Made by a program: the position numbers and the translations under genes. This document shows positions 21,657 through 48,243 of a DNA stretch of 64,000 nucleotides, piece by piece. The notes beneath the pieces are model-generated. The model was given only the letters and a program-made list of their open reading frames with translations, did not search any database and was not told the origin of the DNA. The stretch covers positions 159,651 through 223,650 of IMG/VR virus record IMGVR_UViG_3300027985_001318; one strand, given 5' to 3'. The stretch is from a virus. How positions within the stretch are numbered: position 1 is the stretch's first letter; each line of letters opens with the position of its first letter.

Positions 21657-22556
21657 ATGAGAATCTACATTTCAGATAGCTTGGATTCAGTAAAAGAGCA
21701 GTTTCAAATCGAACTCCCGATGACCTATAGCTCAGGAGCTGAACAAGTGTTCATAAGAGCTGTCCCGCACCCAAGTGTTCGGGGCGCTCTGGAGGCTCTA
21801 TCTGCCTCTGGTTGGACAGCTTTTATGTTTATGTTTAAGAAAACACAAGGGTTTCCGAAAAACTGCTTCGAATTCGAGGCTTTCAGCGGAACATTTCATC
21901 CACTGCCTAAAGCGGAAATTACTTCGCTATTCCAGGCAGCCGAACAGATAGATTTTTACTGGCCTGGTGCAAGTCTGTTCTCGTTCCATACAGCGAGTTT
22001 GAAAGCGTTGAGCGAAGAAGAGATCGATATTGCTAAAATCATCGATGACCGTTTCTTCTCTCAACTTTTTAACCTCAAAGGCAGTAAGCTGAGTTATACC
22101 AAACTGCAAAAGGCGGTAATTCTTAGCGGTAGCCATAAAAATGCGGTTACCTTTGCCGGGAAGCTTTATCTGAAGAATCCGACTTTCTGTTTGGATGCCC
22201 AAGATAACGGCTGTGTCTATATGCAGCTAACTCCAAGCCCACAGATGGAAGCTCTTTGTAATATCATTGAGGCAGCTGAAGCACAGGGTGTCGAGGATCT
22301 TGTCAAGACTTGTCTGACTAAAGACGCTTTGAAACTCGTCAACGTAAAAATTGAAGCGTTTGATTCCACCTTGGAACTACAGCCCATCGAAAAGATCGTT
22401 GAAGTACTTCGCAAAGCCACTGAGATCCACGTAGAATACCAAGGGCTGGTATGCAGTACGTTGGAGCTCAAGCGAGAGTGGGCAGCTCTTAACGACATTG
22501 ATTACTTCGATGTAGTTAGCGAGGCTGTAAATAACTGCTTTCTTGAACAACTTTAA
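21657..22556 (+). CDS. Unknown protein with two copies of a phage domain (299 aa)
   Basis: Two tandem domains of about 110 residues. Copy 1 (1-110): RIYISDSLDSVKEQF, VFIRAVPHPSVRGALEALSA, ending QIDFYW. Copy 2 (about 155-270): KAVILSGSHKNAVTFA, VYMQLTPSPQMEALCNIIEA, ending EIHVEY. The same unit occurs twice in 22571 and once in 23637. Function unknown. The run of strand, helix, strand with a proline-containing turn before the long helix is the constant feature. Confidence 0.75.
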   Translation: MRIYISDSLDSVKEQFQIELPMTYSSGAEQVFIRAVPHPSVRGALEALSASGWTAFMFMFKKTQGFPKNCFEFEAFSGTFHPLPKAEITSLFQAAEQIDFYWPGASLFSFHTASLKALSEEEIDIAKIIDDRFFSQLFNLKGSKLSYTKLQKAVILSGSHKNAVTFAGKLYLKNPTFCLDAQDNGCVYMQLTPSPQMEALCNIIEAAEAQGVEDLVKTCLTKDALKLVNVKIEAFDSTLELQPIEKIVEVLRKATEIHVEYQGLVCSTLELKREWAALNDIDYFDVVSEAVNNCFLEQL

Positions 22557-22570
22557 CTAAGGACAAGGAA

Positions 22571-23578
22571 ATGACATTACGTCTTTACATCGGTGCTTCT
22601 ATCGAGGCTGTCCGTGAACAATACGGCGAACTACTTAATGACCTGTCAGGTAAAGGCCTCAGTGAGAGCTACGGTCCTGACGAAACGGACGTGTTCGTAA
22701 AAGCCATTCCTGGACGGTTACTCAAGCAATTCCTTCTACTTCTAGGTAAGGTTAAGGATGAAACCCTGCCTGATTTCGTCAGAGATTTCTTGAAGATAAG
22801 GAAAGATTGTTTCGAGTACGAAATTGTCGACAAAAATGGGAAGGCTTTGTCTGAGGAAGAAACGGATAAAATCTTCACTGAAGCCACTCTGGCGTATTTC
22901 TGCTGGGAGGATGGAACCAAGTTGGAATTTCCTGGGGTAGTTGAAGAAGAACTCTGGCTTGCCCTGCCTTTCTTATACAGGAAAAAACTCATCAGCAGCT
23001 GTTTTATCAGAGATCTACGACGTGAACAATATCGATTGAGGGCTATGAAAGTGGAACAGGCTACTGAAAGTATTGGTAAAGCCAAGAAAATTATCCTGGC
23101 CGGCTGTCATAATGACGCAGTCGATTACGCTAGACGCAATGGACTGAACACTCCGGACTTTTCACATGTCGGCGAGACCGATGTCCTATTCCTACGGTTA
23201 GTGCCAAATAAATCACTGGAAGGCGTCTGTAAGTTGATTCGCCTGGCTAAACTGGAAGGGCTCTACGACCATCTTCGTCTGATCTACAGTGCCACCGAAA
23301 TCGAGCAGTTTCGGTTGGCTATTTGGGTATACGATAACAAGATGGGAACGAAAAGCTGCGTCGATACTGGTTATCTGTTGAAAAACGCCGAGGAGATTCA
23401 CTATTGTTGCTCTGATCTGTTCGAGGGCAAGCTGGCTATCCCAGAGAACTGGCAGACGTTGCCCGACACTGAGGTTTGGCTAGACGCTGAAAGGGTGTTG
23501 GAAAAGATTTTCCTCGGGGAACTGATTACTGTCAACTTCTACGACGATGCTGTTCTAAAGACAGATCTCGGGTCATAG
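22571..23578 (+). CDS. Unknown protein with two copies of the same domain (335 aa)
   Basis: Paralogue of the preceding gene. Copy 1: LRLYIGASIEAVREQY, VFVKAIPGRLLKQFLLLLGK, LAYFCW. Copy 2: KIILAGCHNDAVDYA, LFLRLVPNKSLEGVCKLIRLAKLEGL, EIHYCC. It starts 15 bases after 22556 and ends in a palindromic hairpin. Function unknown. Confidence 0.75.
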   Translation: MTLRLYIGASIEAVREQYGELLNDLSGKGLSESYGPDETDVFVKAIPGRLLKQFLLLLGKVKDETLPDFVRDFLKIRKDCFEYEIVDKNGKALSEEETDKIFTEATLAYFCWEDGTKLEFPGVVEEELWLALPFLYRKKLISSCFIRDLRREQYRLRAMKVEQATESIGKAKKIILAGCHNDAVDYARRNGLNTPDFSHVGETDVLFLRLVPNKSLEGVCKLIRLAKLEGLYDHLRLIYSATEIEQFRLAIWVYDNKMGTKSCVDTGYLLKNAEEIHYCCSDLFEGKLAIPENWQTLPDTEVWLDAERVLEKIFLGELITVNFYDDAVLKTDLGS

Positions 23579-23590
23579 TTCAACTAACGG

Positions 23591-23616
23591 TTAGGGAAGG
23601 AGATCTCCTTCCCTAA
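23591..23616 (+). terminator. Perfect palindromic hairpin
   Basis: TTAGGGAAGGAGA followed directly by its exact reverse complement, 26 bases. No T run follows, so it may be a processing or stabilising hairpin rather than a full terminator. Confidence 0.55.
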
Positions 23617-23636
23617 CTAGAAAAAGGAATAAAGAG

Positions 23637-24092
23637 ATGGTTAAGGAAATTTTTATCAGCACCTCTATGCGCTCTATCAATGTAATGACCCAAAATGTGG
23701 ACATGATACTTTTAGACGGTAAGACGGAGCGTTTGTTTGTTGGTCTACATTTATCTCCCCCAATGAAAGCGATTCTGGAACTGGTGATGAGCTGCCATCA
23801 TTCTGGGCTAGTAAACGAGGTCAGTTTCGCCCTACCTTCACGTAGTTCTCTCTGGGCCAATTTGTTCGTTCTTAATCGCACTGGTCAGGAGGCTATGCGT
23901 GACTTCGCCATGAATGTCTGTTATGAGGCGGAGTCCATTTACTTTGGATATGCCGGCGGGGTATTGCCGTTGCGTAAACTGGAGATAACCGATGACATGC
24001 GTAAATACCCAAGTGATCGTTTTTATCGCACGCTCTGCGGTTTGATAGAGGAGCGTTTGATTAAGGACTTAAAGATTAGCTTCGATTCTTAG
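23637..24092 (+). CDS. Unknown protein with one copy of the 21657/22571 domain (151 aa)
   Basis: KEIFISTSMRSINVMTQ, LFVGLHLSPPMKAILELVMS and SIYFGY match the three landmarks of the domain in the two preceding genes, so this is the single-domain member of a three-gene family. The C-terminal 45 residues are not repeated. Function unknown. Confidence 0.75.
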   Translation: MVKEIFISTSMRSINVMTQNVDMILLDGKTERLFVGLHLSPPMKAILELVMSCHHSGLVNEVSFALPSRSSLWANLFVLNRTGQEAMRDFAMNVCYEAESIYFGYAGGVLPLRKLEITDDMRKYPSDRFYRTLCGLIEERLIKDLKISFDS

Positions 24093-24122: not shown

Positions 24123-24161
24123 AATCCCAAAAAATCTCAGACCTATATGCCTTAGGTGAGC
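24123..24161 (+). promoter_or_regulatory. Early-type promoter with 17-base upstream box
   Basis: AATCCCAAAAAATCTCA (24123-24139), identical to 7961-7977, then GACC and TATATGCC (24144-24151) followed by TTAGGTGAGC. GACCTATATGCCTTAG also occurs at 41802. The gene begins 79 bases after the core. Confidence 0.6.
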
Positions 24162-24222
24162 TTAAGGTAGAGAATGGGTTGTCCGCTCTCCTTTAACTCC
24201 TACTCCTTAAGGGGAACGCATC

Positions 24223-24675
24223 ATGAACAACAACCAACACCTGTTCCAAAGCTGGGTTTCTGTCAACATCAACGCCGAAAGCCAGGAAGCTGCTAAGAGC
24301 AACCCTCTGATCGAAGGTGGGCTCCAATGTAGCTTCCAGACCCGTTACAAGGATCTGGAACGTGTAACAGTTACCAACGCGTTCAGCATCAATATGCTGA
24401 GCGAAACCAGTAACCTTAAGTTCATCCAACTGGATGAGTCTGAGGCTAAGTGGGTAGTTAGTAATTTTGGGCACGATAGCGCTGTCGGTCACGCCGATAC
24501 CGCCGCCGTGCTAAGCAGTGTACTCGGCATCGAAGTGCCGATGAACCGCACCACGTTGCAGATGCAGCGCGGTACTGCCCTGCTGGTTGGGCAGTACAAA
24601 GGTCCTCGGTTAGCCGAGGGCACGATGGAGCTTCCGGAAGGGGCTTCCATCGAATGGTGGTTGGTGCGCCACTAA
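24223..24675 (+). CDS. AcrIII-1 (DUF1874) viral ring nuclease, anti-type-III CRISPR
   Basis: A 150-residue protein. Residues about 49-150 match DUF1874, whose archaeal-virus members (SIRV1 gp29) degrade cyclic tetra-adenylate and so switch off type III CRISPR ancillary nucleases. Landmarks: VTNAFSINML (50-59; LANAFSINML in gp29), SAVGHADTAAVLSSVLG (86-102) with H90 at the position of catalytic H47, PMNR (R109), and PRLAEGTM with E132 at the position of E88. Residues 1-48 are an extension not found in the minimal family. It has its own early-type promoter and two terminators, so it is a single-gene unit next to other takeover genes. Assignment rests on the motif match; ligand specificity is an inference. 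Confidence 0.85.
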   Translation: MNNNQHLFQSWVSVNINAESQEAAKSNPLIEGGLQCSFQTRYKDLERVTVTNAFSINMLSETSNLKFIQLDESEAKWVVSNFGHDSAVGHADTAAVLSSVLGIEVPMNRTTLQMQRGTALLVGQYKGPRLAEGTMELPEGASIEWWLVRH

Positions 24676-24702
24676 GAGAAGGGGACCTAGGTCCCCTCTC
24701 TA
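24676..24702 (+). terminator. First of two tandem hairpins after ring nuclease
   Basis: AGAAGGGGACC / GGTCCCCTCTCT around TA. It is followed directly by a second hairpin of the GGAGGGC family. Confidence 0.6.
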
Positions 24703-24708
24703 CAAATT

Positions 24709-24738
24709 CAAAAGAGGAGGGCTTTCGCCCTCCTCCTA
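24709..24738 (+). terminator. Second tandem hairpin, GGAGGGC family
   Basis: Stem AGGAGGGC / GCCCTCCT with TTTC between the arms; weak T run (CCTATA). Confidence 0.65.
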
Positions 24739-24770: not shown

Positions 24771-25082
24771 ATGTCCCAATTCCGGACTTTGGTAGAAAAC
24801 TCCCTGGCCAATACCGGCCTGGGAGCGCGCGAGTGCTTGGGCAACCCCCAGGTACTCAACGACTTTATCCGTAAAGTCGTGTTGGCCATAAAGACCCCGT
24901 GTCTTTATGGGGCTGACGAAAGCTCTGCTATCTACAGCATTGACTGTGGTAAGAGCTTCGTCATGATGTCTTCAGGGCACTGCGATCTCGGTCGCGACGC
25001 CCTCGACATCAGCACTTTCGACTTCGAGTACGAAGTCGAAAGCTGCCTCGACAGCATCGCTGAAGGTCGAGACGAAGACTAA
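24771..25082 (+). CDS. Hypothetical acidic protein (103 aa)
   Basis: Unrecognised, acidic in the second half (FDFEYEVESCLDSIAEGRDED). AAGGAGCAATGCC gives its ribosome site. It stands between tandem hairpins and a strong terminator, directly after the ring nuclease; small acidic proteins in such positions are often inhibitors of host functions, but nothing here proves it. Confidence 0.7.
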   Translation: MSQFRTLVENSLANTGLGARECLGNPQVLNDFIRKVVLAIKTPCLYGADESSAIYSIDCGKSFVMMSSGHCDLGRDALDISTFDFEYEVESCLDSIAEGRDED

Positions 25083-25965: not shown

Positions 25966-26385
25966 ATGAAAGATCTCGAGCAGCCGCCACTGCTTGGCAT
26001 GGCGGTCTTTAACGCCATTTACAGCTGGCTGGCCGATAAAGGGTATCGTGTCTACGTCTATGTTCCCGATAGCCGTGCTGAAGGTGTGATGGTCCCTGAG
26101 CGCTCCGTGGGCGAGAACGGCAGTATAACGCTCTGCATAAGCCCGAACGCAGTCCTGAAGTTCAGCGTAACGGTTTACGGCATTGGATTCGAGGGTCGCT
26201 TTAATGGCATGGTCTCTCACGTTTCTTTGCCGTGGGGTAGTTTCAGCATTGGCACGCCGGATGCGGACATCAGACCATTCCCATTCCCGGCTTTTCCGTT
26301 CTATGAATTTAACGGAAAAGAACCAATCATTCCCGGTGAAGAACAGCCGCCGAAAGGCAAGCCCAAGCTGTCCGTAGTTAAATAA
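25966..26385 (+). CDS. SspB-like ClpXP adaptor
   Basis: A 139-residue homologue of SspB (165 residues in E. coli), the adaptor that hands ssrA-tagged and other substrates to ClpXP. The fold domain aligns over its length: PPLLGMAVFNAIYSWLADKG (E. coli RPYLLRAFYEWLLDN), VMVPERSVGENGSITLCISPNAV (VQVPMEYARDGQIVLNIAPRAV) and FEGRFNGMVSHVSLPWGSFSI (FNARFGGIPRQVSVPLAAVLAI). A proline/acidic linker leads to a tail KPKLSVVK, matching the ClpX-binding tail RPALRVVK. The linker is shorter than in the host protein. Likely role: steer host or phage proteins to ClpXP, or compete with host SspB. In one operon with 25207 and the AAA ATPase. Confidence 0.85.
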   Translation: MKDLEQPPLLGMAVFNAIYSWLADKGYRVYVYVPDSRAEGVMVPERSVGENGSITLCISPNAVLKFSVTVYGIGFEGRFNGMVSHVSLPWGSFSIGTPDADIRPFPFPAFPFYEFNGKEPIIPGEEQPPKGKPKLSVVK

Positions 26386-41870: not shown

Positions 41871-42041
41871 ATGGAAACTATCAACCCAGAAGAACTCGTG
41901 TATTGCGCTTCATGCGATCGTCAGTTTAAGCGCAAGGAAATGGTCAGCTGGTTTTCGACAGATACTCGTGAGGAGCATATCTGTCCGCATTGTGCAGAAG
42001 CGGAAGCGAGCTACGTTGATGGAGACGGTAAGGATGAATAG
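41871..42041 (+). CDS. 56-residue zinc-ribbon protein
   Basis: METINPEEL... with two CxxC pairs (C12/C15 in YCASCDR and C38/C41 in ICPHCAE), a typical small zinc ribbon. The ATG at 41871 lies 8 bases after AAAAGAGG; the ATG at 41865 is too close to it. First gene behind a TATATGCC promoter. It overlaps the HD gene by 8 bases. Small zinc ribbons often bind nucleic acid or RNA polymerase; here that is a guess. Confidence 0.7.
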   Translation: METINPEELVYCASCDRQFKRKEMVSWFSTDTREEHICPHCAEAEASYVDGDGKDE

Positions 42042-42645
42042 TGAGATCGTTGAGATACTGGGCTGGTTGCCAGTTGGGTTTGTGTCGAAAGTATGCTCTT
42101 ACATAGAGCGCAACGATGCTGGCCATCAACACGACCATGTCTTTGACGTGGTGATGGAAGCGGCACGATTGAGTGGTGGTAATAGAAATGCAACACTCGC
42201 AGCATTTCTACATGACATTGGTTGCGGTTTTGATCGTGACCGTCATCATGAAATCGGTGCCGAGTTATCGGAAGGGTTGCTGCGATATAATGAGATCGAG
42301 TGCGACCTGGACATGGTCGTGAAAGCCGTGCTGGAGCATCGTGCGAGCTGGAAGGGTGGTTATAGTAGTAAGGTATCTGAATGGGTATCTGCTGCTGACC
42401 GAGGTAAGCCGGATGCAGATCGTTACTTGAAGCGGAGTTATCTTTACGCTAAGAGTAAGTTGGGTAAGAACCATGAGCAGTCTATTCAGCATGCGCTGGA
42501 AACGATACGCGGAAGGTTTTTGCTGAAGACTCCGGAAGCTCCTGAGTGGTACTTTGAACTTTACGCGGAAGAGTGGAAGCAAATGCGTGAAGATCTGGCG
42601 AACGAGACCTTGGAACGTACCGCTGAGCGAATGCGTTTTATGTGA
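42034..42645 (+). CDS. HD-domain phosphohydrolase
   Basis: A 203-residue HD protein: AGHQHDHVFDVV (first His), AAFLHDIGCG (HD pair), RHHEIGAEL, LEHR and WVSAADRGKP (last Asp) in the family order. HD enzymes hydrolyse nucleotides or signalling nucleotides. The ATG at 42034 (GGAGACGGTAAGG ahead) is used, not the one at 41968 inside the zinc-ribbon gene. It is early-type by its promoter, so host nucleotide or (p)ppGpp breakdown is possible. Confidence 0.83.
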   Translation: MNSEIVEILGWLPVGFVSKVCSYIERNDAGHQHDHVFDVVMEAARLSGGNRNATLAAFLHDIGCGFDRDRHHEIGAELSEGLLRYNEIECDLDMVVKAVLEHRASWKGGYSSKVSEWVSAADRGKPDADRYLKRSYLYAKSKLGKNHEQSIQHALETIRGRFLLKTPEAPEWYFELYAEEWKQMREDLANETLERTAERMRFM

Positions 42646-45408: not shown

Positions 45409-48243
45409 ATGGCTGAGGATATTCAATACGTAGAAGAGGCTCCAGAGAGTCAGCCCTCGGTACGTGAGTCTGGCACCTGGGTACCTGGTATCCCCAGAGA
45501 CCGTCTAGACGAGTTTCTGGATGATATTCAGCTGTTGCTGAACCAATGCCGACTGCAGGCCGAACTGGCCGCCACTCGTGCCACTCAGGCCACTCTGGAA
45601 GCAACCAACGCAGCGGCTTCCAGACAGGCCGCTGAACTAGCCTCAGTGGAAGCAAGTGGACATCGTGTTGCAGCTGGAGCTTCGGCCACCTCAGCTTCTA
45701 GCTTCGCTGGTGACTCTGCTAATTCCGCCTTGGATTCCAGCGAAGAAGCCGATCGCGCTAAGGAGGAGGCAGATCGGTCGGTTATGGTGATGGAAGATCA
45801 CTTGAATGCCGAGGATCCACATCCGCAGTATATCAAGAAAGCTCTTCCTAGCGAAGCTACTGAAAGTGATCAGTTCGTTTTCACTCTGAATGGGCTGCAG
45901 CTATTATCCAGCGAAGGCTCCATCAAAATCACTACTTACACCGAAGCAGATCTCGACGGTGGTCTGGGCTGGAATGATCCAAAGCTGGCATTTACTGGCG
46001 ATTATATCTTGCAGGTAAATGGTATTGCAAATGGTCCGGAAGTCAGCTCTGGGATTGTCAAGGCCTCTACCAAGTGGTATCTCTCCGTTCGCGCTATGGG
46101 TAATGGAACTTACTTGCAGTTTGCTTACAGTGAGAAAGGTGACTTGGTTAGCCGATATATCGATACTGTTCAGGGAACCTATAGTCACTGGTTGGTGTTC
46201 GCCAACGGTTCCGCTTACAACAAAAGCAGACAAAAGAACATCACTGGACCAAGTGTTGGTTTCACTAGCACCTATCAGCTTTCCAGCATCGATATGGTTT
46301 ACAACCACTTGATCGTAAGTGCGGACATTGATGGCTTTACTGTACGGTTGCCGGTTTCAGTTGGTGGCGTTAATGAAATTGAGACTGCCAGTAAGTTCTT
46401 GGTCACTAACGATACCGCAAACCAGCTGCTGATTGAAACACCATCAGCTGACGTGAAACTGAACGGCGATAATGTGGCGGTTAGTATCCCCGCTTACAGC
46501 ACCGCTGTGTTGATCAACTATAACGACACCGTAACCTGGACTATCTTTGGTTTCGGTTTGGGTGGGATCAATAAAGCTCGTTTTCTCAATAACGTTGAAG
46601 TTGGTGTTCGTAACTACACCAAACACCGTATCATGCGCTCGAGTGCTGATGTGGAAGGTACATGGCACGTTTATGAACTGCCTGCCGATAGCGATGGTTG
46701 GATTGATTTCTCGGTAGATCACCTTTGGGAAACTGACGCCACCGGCAAATTGAATACTCCTTTGGTGCTGAAGGCACCGGGCGACGAGAAGATTTCTACC
46801 GGCGACGGTGAGTTCGAAGCCGTTAGAATCCTCTACCGTGTCGACTTCACTGCTTTCCGCTACCAAAGTCAGTGGCGCGTCAATGACTGCATTGAATTCT
46901 CCTTGGAAGAACCGGATAATACAGTCTATAACCTGTTAACCTTCGAAGCCCAAGAAGAAGTTTCAGCTACCAAAGCCAAAAATGTGGTACAAATTCCACA
47001 TCCTACCGGCATGTATACCGATGCTGTTGGGTTCATCTGGTGGAACGACACCACTTATTGCGTACATCGAATAGTTCCGCTAGATATCAATGTCGAGACC
47101 CATTCAGCACAAGGGCTCTACATAACGAGCTTAGGTCAGTACGCTGCAAAGATCCACTGCATCTCTGCTGGTTATAGTGGCGGCGTTATCAAGTATGCGG
47201 CTATCGTTACGACTACCAACGGTAAACACTATTTAGTAAAAGGTTACGACAATCCTAGCGGTTATTTTATTTGGATGCCTCTGGCTGAGCTTAGCTACCC
47301 ATACGGAATCATGGGGACTGATCGCAAATCTAACTTTGTAGCCCTTTATAGTGATGGCGGTGACCTCAAGACGGTTCGTTACCATATGGCCACCGAGGCT
47401 GTTACTGAGCAAACTTGGGCCGGTACCGCTTCAGCTAACTCCAACAATAAGTGGGAGCTCTATACTCCGCTTAGAGGCGTCTATGGCTCTAGTTCGATAA
47501 CCAGCCCACTTAGCGATGGTAGTACGGTTACTTGGGCAGTTGCTAGCACAGATAGCATGATTTTTGCCACCACTGACGGTATTGCGGTGATGATGTTATA
47601 TTTCAGTCACCTTGGTACCGACGATTTGTTTGGTTTGTTCAATGAACTTACCACCGAACAGATCTCTCAAGCTGAGAGTGAAGGATGGCTTGGTAACGGT
47701 ATTGAATTTAGCAGTATGATTTTCGATTACTACACCCCAGGTAAACTGCTACTTGGTCGCAATGACGATACCACTACCTTAGTGGCAAGAGCGCACAATA
47801 CCGAAGAGGCGTCCGTCGTGCCGTTCCCGGCCAGTCGAGGAAAGAAAGGTTTGAAGTTGGTGGATCTTTCTTACTGGTCTCCAATTACTACCGACGCGCC
47901 GCTCTATGCCGCAATGATCGGTAACGACATGGTGGTTGGTCTCAGCCCCCGAATGACTGAGCATTTCTGCTACAATCGTGGGCCTGCTGACTACTATTAC
48001 CGTAGTGTGGAAAATAAGTCCGAGACCAGAAACTTCCCGTTCTATCAAGCAGACGGTAGCCTCGAAGATACTCCGTTCTTTATTGTAGCGACGTACTATG
48101 GCCCGAACAGCACCGAAAGAATAGCCAATCCTCTGTTCTATATTGGCTTCCCTACCGACGCAGATCCGGTTAGTTATGCGTTTCGAATCGGGGCCGATGC
48201 TGTAGCTAATTCGGCATATACTCAAATTGGTCTTATCGTTTAA
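45409..48243 (+). CDS. Tail fibre protein (944 aa)
   Basis: N-terminal virion-attachment part (1-45), then an alanine-rich trimeric coiled coil (about 45-120: LAATRATQATLEATNAAA, ASATSASSFAGDSANSA), then NAEDPHPQYIKK, a fibre motif seen in many phages, then about 800 strand-rich residues for receptor binding. It starts 3 bases after the helicase stop, with AAGGAG. First of a set of adhesin-like genes to 53210. Confidence 0.85.
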   Translation: MAEDIQYVEEAPESQPSVRESGTWVPGIPRDRLDEFLDDIQLLLNQCRLQAELAATRATQATLEATNAAASRQAAELASVEASGHRVAAGASATSASSFAGDSANSALDSSEEADRAKEEADRSVMVMEDHLNAEDPHPQYIKKALPSEATESDQFVFTLNGLQLLSSEGSIKITTYTEADLDGGLGWNDPKLAFTGDYILQVNGIANGPEVSSGIVKASTKWYLSVRAMGNGTYLQFAYSEKGDLVSRYIDTVQGTYSHWLVFANGSAYNKSRQKNITGPSVGFTSTYQLSSIDMVYNHLIVSADIDGFTVRLPVSVGGVNEIETASKFLVTNDTANQLLIETPSADVKLNGDNVAVSIPAYSTAVLINYNDTVTWTIFGFGLGGINKARFLNNVEVGVRNYTKHRIMRSSADVEGTWHVYELPADSDGWIDFSVDHLWETDATGKLNTPLVLKAPGDEKISTGDGEFEAVRILYRVDFTAFRYQSQWRVNDCIEFSLEEPDNTVYNLLTFEAQEEVSATKAKNVVQIPHPTGMYTDAVGFIWWNDTTYCVHRIVPLDINVETHSAQGLYITSLGQYAAKIHCISAGYSGGVIKYAAIVTTTNGKHYLVKGYDNPSGYFIWMPLAELSYPYGIMGTDRKSNFVALYSDGGDLKTVRYHMATEAVTEQTWAGTASANSNNKWELYTPLRGVYGSSSITSPLSDGSTVTWAVASTDSMIFATTDGIAVMMLYFSHLGTDDLFGLFNELTTEQISQAESEGWLGNGIEFSSMIFDYYTPGKLLLGRNDDTTTLVARAHNTEEASVVPFPASRGKKGLKLVDLSYWSPITTDAPLYAAMIGNDMVVGLSPRMTEHFCYNRGPADYYYRSVENKSETRNFPFYQADGSLEDTPFFIVATYYGPNSTERIANPLFYIGFPTDADPVSYAFRIGADAVANSAYTQIGLIV

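Follow-up and report, generated by a model that had tools for sequence, protein, structure and literature searches.

A DUF1874-family (AcrIII-1-type) ring nuclease gene with an extended N terminus in a divergent, chimallin-encoding phage

The ring nuclease gene, its promoter-like element, and its neighbors

The DNA analyzed here (the window) is the final 64 kb of a 223,650-base IMG/VR virus record. At 24223-24675 on the plus strand it carries an open reading frame of 150 codons, running from ATG to TAA, whose product was assigned as a DUF1874/AcrIII-1-type ring nuclease on the basis of the reading frame, profile matches, residue mapping, and fold, the domain comprising residues 49 to 148. The first 48 residues (24223-24366, plus strand) form an N-terminal extension, and a strong Shine-Dalgarno-like sequence, AAGGGGA (24209-24215, plus strand), lies about 8 nt 5′ of the ATG and would serve this extended start.

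The intergenic region 5′ of the gene contains a 27-base promoter-like element, AATCTCAGACCTATATGCCTTAGGTGA (24133-24159, plus strand). The phage genome holds seven copies of it and one weaker copy, all on the plus strand, and the other copies (at 47146, 58968, 96541, 136430, 152068, and 201450 of the genome, G000) share its core. This core reads AGACCTATAT and comes in two flavors, AATCTCAGACCTATATG... and AGACCTATATCACT....GTGG. Six of the seven copies sit 45 to 168 nt 5′ of a predicted gene, mostly small genes of unknown function and one HD-domain gene. The element is interpreted as a phage promoter that probably serves early or accessory genes. The HD-domain protein in the window is encoded at 41968-42645, 3′ of the same element as the ring nuclease.

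On the 3′ side, a GC-rich hairpin (24675-24701, plus strand) that is terminator-like, with a clear U run absent, is found right after the stop codon, and a second strong hairpin (24714-24735, plus strand) is predicted before the next gene. Because two strong hairpins lie 3′ of the gene, it is likely expressed as a single-gene transcript.

No CRISPR-Cas gene was matched among the neighbors of the ring nuclease gene in PADLOC or Pfam. Two upstream genes (21657-22556 and 22571-23578) are paralogs sharing 25% identity, and each looks internally duplicated. They were examined for a shared DUF1874 fold, but the model was of low confidence (pLDDT 63) and gave no significant match, so that no link to the ring nuclease emerged. 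Together with the gene at 23637-24092, for which no relatives were found in viral contigs, they make up a run of three orphan genes (21657-24092) with no family or fold match. Farther along, 24771-25082 and L015:4504-4806 encode two paralogous proteins of the phage, of ~100 amino acids and with no assigned function (E = 5e-11), and 25966-26385 encodes an SspB-like (ClpXP adaptor) protein of the phage (PHROG 8945, E = 7e-8, with a weak Pfam match).

Family membership, catalytic residues, and predicted fold

The original prediction had placed the protein in the AcrIII-1 (DUF1874) family and had proposed a profile search and a structure prediction compared with SIRV1 gp29 as checks; both were run and both agreed with it. 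The Pfam profile PF08960 (STIV_B116-like, that is, DUF1874) matched residues 50 to 134 with an E value of 8.2e-11 and 42.4 bits, exceeding its curated cut-off of 26 bits, and PHROG 5063 matched the protein at 1.5e-17. Its sole sequence relatives in the PDB were DUF1874 proteins, namely, AFV3-109 (4e-9), STIV B116 (7e-5), SIRV1 ORF114 (8e-5), and the 6SCF chain (7e-4). In the alignment the 6SCF chain has an Ala at the position of the catalytic His of SIRV1, which is consistent with this entry being an inactive mutant, and the window protein has a His there.

All seven of the SIRV1 gp29 residues that were checked proved identical in the window protein in a computed alignment (N52 = N8, S55 = S11, H90 = H47, R109 = R66, Q124 = Q81, R129 = R85, and E132 = E88). 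Both catalytic residues, H90 (codon at 24490-24492, plus strand) and E132 (codon at 24616-24618, plus strand), are thus kept as had been claimed, and so are the arginines R109 and R129. Across 82 distinct family members, a set that was drawn from viral contigs and phages and includes the window protein, the catalytic His is present in 82/82, the Glu in 77/82, and R109 and R129 in 81/82 each, while the Asn at the N52 position is found in 80/80 ungapped members. As a matter of sequence comparison, the family match and the conserved residues are far beyond chance.

An AlphaFold2 monomer model, built from an alignment of 63 sequences, had a mean pLDDT of 92 to 97 in the blocks of the domain. Searched against the PDB with Foldseek, this model matched 2j85, 6scf, 2j6b, 2x4i, and the Csx1-Crn2 entries 8y7f and 8y7g at a probability of 1.00, and the significant matches were DUF1874 proteins only, including the cA4-bound Csx1-Crn2. 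The TM scores (target normalized) for the SIRV1 gp29 chains 6scf and 2x4i were 0.68 to 0.82. These sequence and model data indicated that residues 49 to 148 of the window protein are a DUF1874/AcrIII-1 ring nuclease domain.

A Foldseek search against viral predicted structures also returned, at a probability of 1.00 and with 11 to 16% identity, uncharacterized proteins of Kwan and phiEaH2, two Erwinia phages that are nucleus forming. Judged by length, two of the Kwan matches appear to be gp256 and gp263 of vB_EamM_Kwan (L145:1516-1917 and L145:6261-6671), which were the top, but weak, DUF1874-profile matches among 18 Kwan proteins scanned and in which both the RLxEG motif and the catalytic His seem to be missing. 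Proteins of this type possibly represent a family of fold-only, noncatalytic DUF1874 relatives.

The N-terminal extension

Between codons 1 and 58 of the ring nuclease reading frame there is no in-frame ATG, GTG, or TTG, so that the extended start is forced unless a nonstandard start codon is used. In the other DUF1874 members the start codon lies no more than a few residues from the NAFS strand and in most cases has its own ribosome-binding site. Among ~85 relatives, with a handful truncated at contig ends disregarded, a start codon near this strand is absent only in the window protein and possibly in L070; the extension, earlier described as unusual, is nearly unique in this set. Its codon usage fits the frame (0.21 in frame versus −0.20 and −0.11 out of frame), and the 48 residues are real coding sequence.

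No homologs of the extension were found in phages, PHROGs, or Pfam, and no similar sequence is present in the open reading frames of the window phage or of its nearest DUF1874-bearing jumbo phage. In the AlphaFold2 model, residues 1 to 16 are disordered and residues 20 to 41 form low-confidence helices that are not packed on the domain. The extension may steer the location of the enzyme, e.g., near sites of mRNA export or ribosomes. The tripeptide SQE at residues 20 to 22 was considered as a phiKZ-type prohead protease site (for virion packaging), but no similar N terminus was found in the genome, and the idea is no more than a guess. Crn4 ring nucleases, which have an unrelated fold, likewise carry unexplained N-terminal extensions in some cases from phages and plasmids (PMC12830947).

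The phage belongs to a divergent nucleus-forming-like lineage

The record encodes a homolog of chimallin (ChmA) at G000 76099-77967, which aligned with phiKZ gp54 over its full length (E = 1.9e-28, 26% identity). In addition, ~22 phiKZ proteins from one 40-kb stretch were matched in the record in a mostly collinear order, and this phiKZ-type block includes RNA polymerase (RNAP) beta/beta′ pieces, a DNA polymerase, SbcD, homologs of gp66 to gp70, and a helicase. An RNAP subunit is ~33% identical to those of the closest nucleus-forming phages in GenBank, which infect Gram-negative hosts, and 44% identical to that of one metagenomic contig. No tRNAs were found in the phage genome. These gene contents support the view, taken in the original prediction, that the record derives from a nucleus-forming (Chimalliviridae-like) phage, of a divergent lineage, and the chimallin gene points to the formation of a nucleus.

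Intact DUF1874 proteins in other chimallin-encoding phages

In GenBank, no overlap was seen between 290 phage records with the RNAP subunit and 45 with a DUF1874 match, as judged from the organisms listed for the 45 records, which include no phiKZ-type jumbo phage; a second DUF1874 query of GenBank phages likewise returned no jumbo phage. Among uncultured viral contigs, in searches from which records near the window may be missing, two others encode both a chimallin and a DUF1874 protein with intact His and Glu. The first, G016 (109,752 bases), has the DUF1874 gene in L066 and a chimallin match of E = 1e-16, its chimallin gene being directly followed by a gp55-type RNAP gene in the order seen in phiKZ, and the second, G018 (163,977 bases), has it in L151, with matches of 1.7e-40 for chimallin and 3e-113 for RNAP. 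Five further contigs of 179 to 306 kb (G001, G011, G012, G019, and G020) combine a DUF1874 protein with intact His and Glu with a phage multisubunit RNAP, and chimallin was undetected in them. The closest relative of the window phage by RNAP, G005, which has a chimallin, carries a degenerate, sub-threshold DUF1874 relative.

In a tree calculated from a short alignment and with weak support, the three chimallin-phage DUF1874 proteins were not grouped, and a single clade was disfavored in the AU test (p = 0.028). Because the tree does not group them, the sequences suggest that chimallin phages have acquired DUF1874 more than once. A DUF1874 gene was also seen on L025, a 245-kb contig of a GTDB metagenome-assembled genome (JAFVGA010000001.1, labeled Eubacterium), with what seem, by eye, to be terminase-like and tail sheath-like genes nearby; this contig could thus represent a jumbo phage that was assigned to a bacterial genome during binning.

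Discussion

Nucleus-forming phages are the textbook case in which CRISPR is evaded by hiding DNA, with exposure to RNA-sensing type III systems remaining. We consider it probable, at roughly 0.8, that the window protein is an AcrIII-1 ring nuclease that would rapidly destroy cyclic tetra-adenylate (cA4) and shield exported phage mRNA from type III CRISPR. The phage DNA would be concealed in the chimallin shell while its mRNA is exported to the cytoplasm, where a type III system would read it and produce cyclic oligoadenylate. A homodimer of the enzyme would bind cA4 in a pocket at its interface, and H90, as the general acid, together with E132 and the arginines, would promote an in-line attack by the 2′-OH, converting the ring into linear A2>P. 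In this way cA4 would be cleared before ancillary effectors of the Csx1, Can1, or Cam1 type could fire. Dimerization, cA4 cleavage, the anti-CRISPR effect, its timing, and a host type III system that signals through cA4 are what we infer here. Since members of the DUF1874 family are also found in hosts (as Crn2) and in integrative elements, e.g., one carrying B. subtilis yddF, the fold alone is no proof of an anti-CRISPR role.

The mechanism proposed is that of the family, in which a dimer binds cA4 at its interface and an in-line 2′-OH attack, with a His as the general acid, yields A2>P (PMC7213978, PMC7293037, PMC12830947, PMC13148439). The H47A mutant of SIRV1 gp29 is inactive, with a KD for cA4 of about 25 nM (PMC7213978), and the H495A mutation of Crn2 abolished cleavage (PMC7293037). 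The DUF1874 family is cA4 specific (PMC12409355, PMC12830947). Nucleus-forming phages evade DNA-targeting systems and are hit by type III systems and Cas13, their mRNA leaving the shell, and spacers that target chimalliviruses are overrepresented in type III arrays (PMC12908238, PMC13282480).

The prediction is specific and falsifiable, because a system using NucC (cA3) should stay unaffected. NucC is a nuclease activated by cA3 (consistent with PMC12830947). Of all type III systems, that of Serratia, which stops phage PCH45, is the only one shown to halt a nucleus-forming phage, and it works via NucC (PMC13282480, PMC7854544). Since the messenger in that case is cA3 and the DUF1874 family is specific for cA4, we do not expect the window enzyme to interfere with this system.

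The window protein has its domain and fold in common with SIRV1 gp29 (PDB 2X4I and 6SCF), AFV3-109, and STIV B116. Those proteins, however, are from archaeal viruses and are without the extension, while the window protein, of a bacterial nucleus-forming phage, has 48 extra N-terminal residues and, unlike them, a C terminus of the bacterial type (LPEGAxIxWWLV). Its closest relative in the GenBank phage set, with 42% identity over residues 50 to 148, and the best viral structure match to its model is the DUF1874 protein of Thermoanaerobacterium phage THSA-485A, a small phage whose protein lacks the extension. Crn2 and the Csx1-Crn2 fusion of Marinitoga share the catalytic domain, the predicted chemistry, and the structure match, but they are encoded by hosts, as part of a type III locus or as a fusion within one, and belong to the other side of the conflict. 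The ring nuclease Crn4b, found in phages and plasmids, is viral as well but has an unrelated fold and a broad cyclic oligoadenylate specificity. Tad1 of phiKZ also represents counter-defense against cyclic nucleotide signaling in a nucleus-forming phage, but it is a sponge for CBASS/Thoeris messengers and belongs to an unrelated family.

The extension could alter the activity or specificity of the window enzyme. By reshaping the pocket, it might have turned the protein into a DUF1874-fold enzyme or sponge of shifted specificity (e.g., for cA3, cA6, or a CBASS/Thoeris cyclic nucleotide) that acts against another second-messenger defense. Apart from the near uniqueness of the extension, this reading is favored by the fact that nucleus-forming phages face cA3/NucC type III systems and CBASS, by the action of phiKZ Tad1 against cyclic nucleotides (PMC13282480), and by the finding that some phage and plasmid Crn4 proteins are N-terminally extended, with Crn4b acting on both cA3 and cA4 (PMC12830947). 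Yet every mapped residue of the cA4 pocket is unchanged, all characterized DUF1874 enzymes are cA4 specific, and the predicted disorder or low confidence of the extension, unpacked on the domain, also counts against this reading; we regard a shifted specificity as unlikely.

A phage-carried, Crn2-like regulator tuning a phage-borne or coresident type III system, or a housekeeping nucleotide role, in place of an anti-CRISPR, appears less probable still. Crn2 homologs are present in some type III loci (PMC7293037), but PADLOC and Pfam searches of the surrounding genes returned no CRISPR-Cas match, and a published survey found the family in 36 phage genomes versus 7 type III loci (PMC12409355). 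Least probable of all is a ring nuclease of the Csx16 type. The PADLOC Csx16 model did match the protein (1.8e-11), and Csx16 and DUF1874 have a distant fold in common (PMC12409355), but the same model also matches plain DUF1874 proteins, PF08960 was the only Pfam match, and the PDB matches were all DUF1874. Csx16 is already disfavored on these grounds, and as both families are cA4 specific, the choice between them would hardly change the prediction.

No verified anti-CRISPR turned up among the chimallin-bearing members of a jumbo phage survey (PMC11448039), but divergent proteins could have escaped it, as its BLASTP criterion was an identity above 30%. According to a 2026 review, Tad1 is the sole anti-defense protein described in jumbo phages (PMC13282480). 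The enzyme family itself is known, and in the literature searched, we found no earlier report of DUF1874 in chimallin-encoding phages. New here are the repeated 27-base promoter-like element 5′ of the gene and the intact DUF1874 proteins in two other chimallin contigs and in several related jumbo phages.

We put at slightly under even odds the broader proposal that nucleus-forming phages have acquired cA4 ring nucleases more than once and escape in two layers, with the shell hiding the DNA and an enzyme expressed from a phage-specific promoter element, shared with other small accessory genes, silencing the RNA-triggered alarm. If it is true, the ring nuclease would be the cytoplasmic half of this escape. 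From the intact cA4 ring nuclease in chimallin phages, we predict that a part of these phages has closed the type III gap, and only against systems that signal through cA4; such closure would bear on the question of why different messengers are used by type III systems.
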